This document shows, piece after piece, positions 59,063-60,015 of a stretch of 64,000 nt of DNA. The DNA comes from Pseudomonas parafulva (GTDB lineage Bacteria > Pseudomonadota > Gammaproteobacteria > Pseudomonadales > Pseudomonadaceae): contig NZ_CP019952.1 of NCBI RefSeq assembly GCF_002021815.1, positions 1,519,001-1,583,000 on the forward strand. Direction: 5' to 3'. Within the stretch, counting starts at the first letter, position 1. The number at the start of each line of letters is the position of its first letter. The position numbers and the translations under genes were made by a program. The notes below the pieces were generated by a model, which was not told where the DNA came from, did not search any database, and saw only the letters and a list, made by a program, of their open reading frames with translations.

Positions 59063-59110
59063 GTTGCCGTTGCCGTTGCCGTTGCCGTTGCCGTTGCCGT
59101 TGCCGTTGCC
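59063..59110. repeat. Hexanucleotide array (GTTGCC)8
   Basis: Eight perfect tandem GTTGCC copies, followed by a degenerate GTTGCT. Outer left flank of the inverted-repeat element. Its reverse complement (GGCAAC) shares the GCAAC core with the right-hand AACAGC array. Confidence 0.95.
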
Positions 59111-59159
59111 GTTGCTTTGGCTTTTGCTTCTAAGCGCGCGGTAGCACAGACGCCGCAGA

Positions 59160-59389
59160 TCGCGACTTCAGGAGGCCGAGCGCAGGGCTTGCGGAGGGAG
59201 GTGACAGGCATGGATGCCTGTCAAGCGCTGGGCCCCAGGAGGGGGCCTGCAGCGCGGTCCTCCCGGGAGCAAGCCCGGAGCGAGGGAACCCCGGAGCGCA
59301 GCGTAGGGGCCGGATGATAGGAGCAGGCGGTTTTTGCTTACTTTTTGACAAGACAAAAAGTGAGCCGCCGTAAGGGCGGAAAGGTGACT
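59160..59389. repeat. Left arm of long inverted repeat
   Basis: About 230 bases that align end to end with the reverse complement of 59596-59830 at roughly 90% identity over the outer ~160 bases and less inside. Contains nested hairpins: TGACAGGCAT-GG-ATGCCTGTCA (59202-59223), GCGCTG-GGCCCC...GGGGCC-CAGCGC (59225-59256) and CTCCCGGGAG. Confidence 0.93.
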
Positions 59390-59437
59390 GTGCGCCACCC
59401 GCGCCAATGAATACCAACTTGCTATGTGCGCCCGCGC

Positions 59438-59535
59438 TTTCAAGTTTCAAGTTTCAAGTTTCAAGTTTCAAGTTTTAAGTTTTAAGTTTTAAGTTTTAAG
59501 TTTTAAGTTTTAAGTTTTAAGTTTTAAGTTTTAAG
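59438..59535. repeat. Heptanucleotide array (TTTCAAG)5(TTTTAAG)9
   Basis: Fourteen tandem seven-base units, five TTTCAAG then nine TTTTAAG, at the centre between the two inverted arms. The period is not a multiple of three and the units give stop codons (TAA), so it is non-coding. Confidence 0.97.
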
Positions 59536-59595
59536 TTTGATTGCGTTGGTGTGGGTGTCGAAAGAGAGCATAGTCCATTTGCGATGGCGACGCTT

Positions 59596-59830
59596 AATCA
59601 CCTTTTCGCCCTTACGGCGAGTCACTTTTTGTCAAACGCGACAAAAATTAACCAAAAAACGCTGCGCTCCATTCATACGGCCCCTACGCTGCGCTTCGGG
59701 GTTCCCTCACTCCGGTCTTGCTCCCGGGAGGACCGCGCTGTAGGCCCCATCCTGGGGCCCAGCGCTTGACAGGCATCCATGCCTGTCACCTCCCTCCGCA
59801 AGACCTGCGTTCGGCCTTCTGAAGTCGCGA
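59596..59830. repeat. Right arm of long inverted repeat
   Basis: Inverted, imperfect copy of 59160-59389, with the same nested hairpins. In the GCGCTG/CAGCGC hairpin, the differences from the left arm fall in the loop and the bulge, while the stems are kept. Confidence 0.93.
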
Positions 59831-59832
59831 AG

Positions 59833-59910
59833 ATCAAGATCAAGATCAAGATCAAGATCAAGATCAAGATCAAGATCAAGATCAAGATCAAGATCAAGAT
59901 CAAGGTCAAG
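59833..59910. repeat. Hexanucleotide array (ATCAAG)12 plus one GTCAAG
   Basis: Twelve perfect ATCAAG units and one GTCAAG variant begin two bases outside the right arm. Read in one frame they encode Lys-Ile repeats. Confidence 0.96.
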
Positions 59911-59913
59911 ATC

Positions 59914-60015
59914 AACAGCAACAGCAACAGCAACAGCAACAGCAACAGCAACAGCAACAGCAACAGCAACAGCAACAGCAATAGCAACAGCAACAGCAAC
60001 AGCAATAGCAACAGT
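59914..60015. repeat. Hexanucleotide array AACAGC, 17 units
   Basis: Seventeen units, mostly AACAGC with AATAGC and AACAGT variants, directly following the ATCAAG array; the variants near the right end suggest an older, decaying edge. Frames give Asn-Ser or poly-Leu strings. Confidence 0.95.

Follow-up and report, generated by a model that had tools for sequence, protein, structure and literature searches.

Inverted, folded repeat arms with a near-fixed orientation to replication in Pseudomonas parafulva and related genomes

The element between rlmM and tusA

Our analysis concerned a composite element of the Pseudomonas parafulva genome (contig NZ_CP019952.1), which lies in a stretch of 64,000 nucleotides, here called the window, between two genes that we take to be rlmM (57913-58977) and tusA (60315-60557). 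The element was confirmed as an inverted pair of arms of about 230 nt, with a heptamer array between them and hexamer arrays outside. The arms are inverted copies, as an initial annotation of this DNA had claimed: positions 59160-59335 and 59655-59830 are 91% complementary over 176 nt, and a second, inner inverted pair (59352-59409 and 59576-59633) reaches 81%. The same annotation was right to see no transposase or other gene inside, since the open reading frames within the element are mere read-through of arrays and arms and no gene is apparent; the arrays that it described are present, with unit counts that it had set slightly low for two of them. The parts of the element are as follows.

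59061-59115, no strand: left hexamer tail, CCGTTG x 9.2 (repeat detection)
59116-59159, + strand: outer boundary module of the left arm (TTTTGCTTCTAAGCGCGCGGTAG...GCCGCAGA), specific to the left type (sequence, pattern search)
59160-59389, + strand: left arm, functional strand + (in the outer-to-inner direction), running with the replication fork (fold, alignment, orientation)
59202-59223, + strand: hairpin H1 of the left arm, stem TGACAGGC, loop ATGGAT of the RsmA/CsrA-type ANGGAN (fold, alignment)
59365-59379, + strand: small terminal hairpin of the left arm, CCGCC-GTAAG-GGCGG, intact here (sequence)
59438-59538, no strand: central heptamer array (TTTCAAG)5(TTTTAAG)9, 14.4 copies (repeat detection, sequence)
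59596-59830, - strand: right arm, functional strand - (outer to inner), antiparallel to the fork (inverted match, single-stranded DNA fold, alignment)
59607-59620, - strand: terminal hairpin of the right arm, CGCC-GTAAG-GGCG as read on -, an IS landing site in other copies (sequence)
59731-59790, - strand: match to Rfam TwoAYGGAY (RF01731), 41.6 bits against a gathering score of 43 (covariance model)
59830-59915, no strand: right hexamer tail, AAGATC x 14.3 (repeat detection)
59913-60014, no strand: second part of the right hexamer tail, CAACAG x 17 (repeat detection)

By eye, a hexamer run lies outside most of the 19 left arms found in this genome (see below), with a unit that varies by copy, and the left arms of loci L033, L040 and L045 have no clear run; the six elements printed whole hold from about 4 to 14 heptamer-related units, again by eye. 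Beside the right tail of the window copy, in the same intergenic region, positions 60166-60260 look by eye like a possible degenerate REP-like sequence.

Copies, fold and history of the arm

In the genome of the window, a single contig of 4.69 Mb, the arm matches 39 places (from the 40 candidates scored out of 56), which amount to 19 elements and one 43-base scrap. The left-boundary pattern TAAGCGCGCRRTANNNCAGGCGCCGC, with up to two mismatches, finds 19 places, and its reversed control none. These 19 elements bear out the initial view of a gene-less, multi-copy family of structured repeats with satellite tails. Fifteen of them have two arms and four (L043-L046) a left arm only. Another genome, G019 (genomes and loci carry the G and L numbers of this analysis), has 26 known loci, of which 20 were examined, and in 14 of these no second arm lies within about 1.5 kb to either side. 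The initial idea that arms come in pairs therefore does not always hold. Similar sequences had also been expected in other genomes, and they occur there: the arm is present in 31 of 35 other genomes of the genus (four are without a match) and the left boundary in 52 named Pseudomonas stretches, from species of the putida group, so the arm is neither single-copy nor absent from relatives. Several Pseudomonas chromosomes hold some 15 to 30 copies each. There were no matches in 21 genomes of other genera of the order. The left-type boundary was missing from 18 of the 25 genomes searched for it, and P. putida KT2440 was not among the strains returned by the boundary pattern. Carriage by plasmids or phages was considered and discarded, since blastn in distant mode matched the left arm to none of 72,556 plasmid records and none of 50,697 phage records.

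Two further observations concern the surroundings of the copies. In three relatives (L063, L064 and L068), matches to C4 antisense RNA and c4-a1b1 fall within the same few kilobases as the arms. In a P. fulva draft, contigs end in or at arrays or arms (L083, L118-L124), and arrays and arms seem to be the cause of assembly breaks in this draft.

The unit of repetition is a single arm of about 230 nt and not the inverted pair. Folded as RNA, the left arm has a z of -5.0, and the right arm folded as single-stranded DNA one of -6.8, with energies below all 200 shuffles in both cases; together with the number of arm matches, this means that the element is not due to chance. Thinning by k-mer overlap reduced 151 full arms to a diverse set of 40, of which 30 stand in alignment A1 (L056 and the second arm of L132 are excluded from it); alignment A2 holds the nine arms of the GNA type described below. 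The consensus fold of the 30 diverse arms has 42 pairs, and 38 of these show at least one two-sided compensatory change. Paired cells make up 96.8% in the consensus fold, against 75.8% in shuffles (none of 500 as high) and 39-49% in slid controls, a comparison that favours the structure over its slid versions in that it was derived from the same alignment. Mismatch types in this alignment are lopsided, with 58 G-T to 7 A-C cells (38 to 7 when one pair is left out), which points to selection on the strand read from the outer to the inner end.

Within a locus, the left and right arms differ from one another at 27-68 positions (8 loci). At the predicted internal pairs of eight two-armed loci, 61 differences are compensated on both sides, 20 are one-sided with the pair kept and 19 break the pair, so that each arm preserves its own fold. 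The initial annotation had envisaged a long stem between the arms with a loop of about 205 bases; as a conserved structure, this stem is ruled out by the divergence of the arms and by their internal compensation at these eight loci.

The main type of arm is characterised by hairpins with A(N)GGAN loops, of which there are 55 spread over 29 of the 30 diverse arms; in the left arm of the window, the second loop is degenerate (AGGAGG). A subfamily of nine arms from six loci has an A(N)GGAN hairpin in none of the nine, and its three-base loops are GNA in 20 of 21. GNA loops are unusually stable in DNA. The subfamily includes locus L069 of G034 and, by best profile, all 20 examined loci of G019, both of which are genomes with polar arms (see below). 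When 20 loci were searched with RF01731 at an E value of 0.01, four were matched and only L063 (55 bits) cleared the gathering score of 43; the window copy (L052) reached 41.6 bits, L055 41.3 and 39.9, and L062 40.7 and 39.8.

Nine elements of this genome bear insertion sequences (ISs) inside their arms. The first IS, of 1444 bp, has entered the CGCC-GTAAG-GGCG hairpin of seven right arms (L031-L037), in each case at its loop; its OrfA (191 aa) and OrfB (274 aa, rve) are of the IS3-family type, and it is accompanied by a 3-bp duplication, CGT (CGC in L036). The second, of about 1.6 kb with ORFs of 170 aa (HTH_Tnp_1) and 345 aa (rve), occupies the loop of a T-run/A-run hairpin in the left arms of L035, L036 and L048 and in the right arm of L038, with a 5-bp AAGAC duplication in its three left arms. 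One repeat is thus the target of two ISs, each with a hairpin loop of its own. It is from these two rve-transposase ISs, later insertions into the arms with ends of their own, that the genes between arms in our genome come. Identity of the arm IS with ISPpu8 was ruled out, because its OrfB is of the rve type and its matches are named IS3 family transposase, whereas ISPpu8 is listed in the IS4 family (PMC3056050). In the 52 named Pseudomonas stretches, no IS insertion was flagged by script.

The genome studied here is a close relative of Pseudomonas fulva, and at least 11 of its element sites are also occupied in P. fulva NBRC 16637 (G162), several of them judged from one flank because of contig ends; the comparison placed the elements found in G162 in our genome, and 8 of the 19 elements fall outside it. 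The common sites indicate that the copies are old, and no movement since the split from P. fulva was seen at the 11 placeable sites. In a comparison that took in 50 loci of mixed origin, some sites proved to be occupied in more distant genomes as well, for example rlmM-tusA in G165. Empty sites between these two genes, for which the initial annotation had allowed, do exist: in 23 of the 24 other-genome loci holding both genes, the two are separated by 32-415 bp, which leaves no room for a full element, and these gaps are too diverged for any target-site duplication to be read. One of the 23, L093 in G086, contains a remnant of about 40 bp from the outer ends of both arms. At L141 in G078, the left flank matches one of our loci L042 and L048 and the right flank the other, these two lying on opposite replichores; such an exchange of flanks is what recombination between elements would give, as if an inversion crossing the terminus had broken in the repeat.

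In a tree of 90 arms (14 rows without a type label; bootstrap not settled), the arms cluster by species group and type, with 3 label changes against 24 in shuffles, which amounts to concerted evolution, the arms being homogenised within species groups. The tails, which had been called satellites, are not fixed ones: their unit and length change between orthologous copies.

Orientation and position on the chromosome

Left-type arms point with the replication fork and right-type arms against it. In our genome (dnaA at 19,443, dif at 2,381,524), 7 left arms lie before dif on the + strand and 12 after dif on the - strand, so that all 19 are parallel to the fork (p 4e-6). Over the six genomes where dif was located, 73 of 75 left-type arms run with the fork (19/19 in our genome, G000; 25/25 in G130; 16/16 in G124; 4/4 in G165; 7/9 in G122; 2/2 in G086), giving a p of 1.5e-19 if the sites are taken as independent, which they are not fully, as some are common to several genomes and the counts are not independent events. 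Two of the 16 arms of G124 are only 135 bp apart, and the 2/2 of G086 is weak in that the partner arm also bears a left-like boundary missed by the pattern. Right-type arms run against the fork in 57 of 60 cases in three genomes with dif located (G130 27/27, G124 22/22, G122 8/11). G122 (P. peradeniyensis BW13M1) and G165 were counted on the dif-bearing contig only, and reversed-pattern controls gave 0 matches. Both pair orders, left-right and right-left, occur in G124, the strand of each arm type being constant.

All five contrary arms of G122 (two left-type, three right-type) are found between 2.00 and 2.03 Mb on one contig, possibly as a single block that was moved or mis-joined. On the other contigs of G122, right-type arms are uniform and left-type arms are uniform except on C5 (three on +, one on - at the contig edge). 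Both left-type arms of contig C2 of G165 are on -, and in G078, where dif was not found, the eight left-type arms on C1 fit one switch.

Five further genomes, which we label fluorescens-like, show, for arms of one type, one clean strand switch in 119 of 119 cases (G034 25/25, G019 26/26, G105 16/16, G118 26/26, G083 26/26), the origin being estimated in one of the five only. This one is G019, where a noisy GC skew of 20 samples points to an origin close to coordinate 0 and a terminus around 3.0-3.4 Mb, and where the first 20 kb yielded no dnaA. On the GC-skew origin, the G019 arms are antiparallel to the fork, and their boundary, with a GATCTT tail, resembles the right type by eye. Polarity was not seen in the distant genome G015 (best fit 13/17, p 0.74), was not significant in G029 (15/17, p 0.12) and was mixed in G010 (5/6, p 0.96, among the matches listed). 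The totals leave aside G117 (12 of 22 places listed, all consistent with one switch) and G070 (2 places). In two loci of the non-polar G015, L130 and L138, the arrangement seen in the window is reversed: the outer ends of the paired arms face each other across a hexamer-like tail.

The orientation of neighbouring genes was ruled out as the source of this polarity. According to a crude GC3-based caller, flanking genes are co-directional with the arm at 13 of 19 upstream and 12 of 18 downstream positions in our genome, and at 11 of 19 and 7 of 19, respectively, in G019. Polarity is not a trait of all hairpin repeats either, as the REPs of our genome are unbiased, with 52 oriented with the fork and 48 against it (100 listed of 104).

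The elements are also scarce around the origin. In G000, G130 and G124 taken together, 2 of 66 elements lie within 10% of it, compared to 13.2 expected (one-sided p 6e-5), where the origins of G130 and G124 are assumed to be opposite dif and G124 is counted by its right-type arms. The REPs of our genome show no such depletion, with 16 of the 100 listed in this region. In the five fluorescens-like genomes, the largest arm-free stretch takes up a fraction of 0.29-0.34 of the chromosome, with p of 0.0015-0.033 for the individual genomes (for three of them, rounded lengths were used).

Possible explanations and known systems

What was computed directly is strand-specific selection on the fold, many copies, shared sites, homogenisation, near-fixed orientation and origin depletion. 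The explanation that we tentatively prefer, while giving it somewhat less than an even chance, is that the element is an old, non-autonomous repeat resident in the chromosome, whose unit, the single arm, is often set in an inverted left-type/right-type pair with rapidly changing satellite tails. New copies would arise or insert through a strand-specific process tied to replication forks, from which their orientation would follow; candidate routes are a single-stranded intermediate or fork-primed insertion, by which the arms would be oriented as IS200/IS605-type elements are, and a review states that the orientation of this family follows the direction of replication (PMC5371812). A left-type and a right-type arm would then form the opposite ends of a single element, of which solo arms would be one-ended derivatives. 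Among the 19 elements of our genome, we saw no autonomous element, transposase or reverse transcriptase with these ends. Against fork-coupled insertion, it can be said that insertion alone predicts neither the avoidance of the origin nor so few exceptions, that a simple one-strand model does not predict opposite functional strands for the left and right types, and that G015 is non-polar, G029 not significant and G010 mixed among the matches listed.

The rarity of exceptions and the depletion around the origin (2/66; empty stretches of 0.29-0.34), unlike the REPs of our genome (16 of 100 listed), argue for a selected directional signal of the chromosome, as do the strong polarity in 11 genomes, the preservation of the fold despite sequence divergence, with the GNA-loop subfamily included, and the element sites common to several species. 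The arms would act at the DNA level in fork progression, termination or segregation, either through hairpins, extruded or single-stranded, or by binding proteins, and selection would purge copies that face the wrong way or lie near the origin. We consider such a signal possible but somewhat unlikely. It is not essential to the genus (4 of 35 genomes are without the arm, 18 of 25 without the left-type boundary, and G015 is non-polar), left and right arms have the same fold and opposite polarity, and the origin among the five fluorescens-like genomes is estimated in G019 only, from a noisy GC skew. To our knowledge, no protein binds the arms. A bolder proposal, which we hold to be unlikely, is that many Pseudomonas chromosomes carry some 15-30 directional structural signposts, arms that fold as single strands, selected along the origin-terminus axis and kept from the origin region. 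The left and right types would be met by the fork in opposite senses and might allow direction to be sensed during fork passage, termination or segregation; if this were true, they would make up a new class of chromosome element, large, structured and oriented to replication.

The arms could also be RNA genes whose transcripts bind and titrate the CsrA-family proteins RsmA, RsmE and RsmI, the arrangement of the DNA being incidental. Mismatch types that indicate one strand fit this idea, and so do the A(N)GGAN loops borne by hairpins of 29 diverse arms out of 30: RsmE has its high-affinity site where a stem carries an ANGGAX hexaloop (PMC4005645), and TwoAYGGAY is a predicted CsrA binder (PMC4333381). 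In KT2440, all three Rsm proteins pull down RNA of ISPpu8-flanking regions and of a 'long palindromic region' (PMC7937890), which may be the same repeat as the arm; ISPpu8, as an IS4-family member (PMC3056050), is nevertheless unlike the two ISs that we found in arms. RNA genes would leave both the replication polarity and the origin depletion unexplained, and the GNA subfamily, which occurs in polar genomes, is without a GGA hairpin (0 of 9 arms). We judge it improbable that this is what the arms primarily are; arms with ANGGAN loops, once transcribed, would probably bind Rsm proteins as a secondary property. Inverted arms, lack of genes and many copies are likewise what a plain MITE would have, and P. 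fluorescens has MITE-like intergenic repeats (PMC2718517). Such a MITE, belonging to a DDE transposon or to a REP-associated transposase and oriented by chance or by assembly, is nonetheless disfavoured and very improbable, since the orientation is far from chance (73/75; 19/19 in our genome), the REPs of our genome are unbiased, no autonomous element with these ends was seen among its 19 elements, and solo arms are common in G019.

The near-absolute orientation of so large a folded repeat brings a mechanism to light in the sequence itself, either strand-specific insertion at forks by some agent or selection of a directional signal unrecognised so far. The repeat is also a candidate for the source of the palindromic RNAs that Rsm proteins were reported to bind in P. 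putida KT2440. It may account, too, for some of the IS hot spots and some of the assembly breaks seen in genomes of Pseudomonas.

Landing sites for ISs, the TwoAYGGAY family and structured repeats between genes have all been described before. Like TwoAYGGAY, the arms have paired hairpins with AYGGAY-like loops (L063 at 55 bits, the right arm of the window at 41.6); the match is confined to the two-hairpin core, which here sits within an arm of about 230 nt present in many copies, and the element differs further in its tails, its fixed orientation and a subfamily without AYGGAY-like loops. REP, BIME and REPIN repeats are landing sites for ISs. They resemble the arms in being structured, intergenic and often inverted; REPs measure 20-40 bp (PMC4666352), a size that the multi-branched arm of about 230 nt far exceeds, and those of our genome are, unlike the arms, non-polar (52:48, 100 listed of 104). 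A partial precedent for orientation is given by the tandem REP arrays of SBW25, which point forward around 2 Mb and the other way around 4 Mb (PMC3116915). The R0-R200 families of P. fluorescens (Silby 2009; R26 of 352 bp, R178 of 101 bp, R200 of 320 bp) are by their description intergenic, hairpin-forming and of similar size, but no orientation to replication is reported in the parts of the paper available to us (PMC2718517). In the accessible parts of a stem-loop survey (PMC1590033) and of a paper on intrastrand triplexes (PMC4666352), nothing matched this element. IS200/IS605 elements share with the arms subterminal hairpins and an orientation that follows replication (PMC5371812), as seen here except in G015; they differ in that no TnpA or TnpB was seen between arms, that there are two arm types of opposite strand and that the origin is avoided. 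Among open-licence papers, we found no report of hexamer-tailed repeats in Pseudomonas, nor of replication-locked orientation together with origin depletion in an element of this kind. KOPS/FRS and architecture imparting sequences are short oligomers that are oriented from origin to terminus and are rarer near the origin. The arms differ from such signals in being folded repeats of about 230 nt, of two types that face opposite ways.
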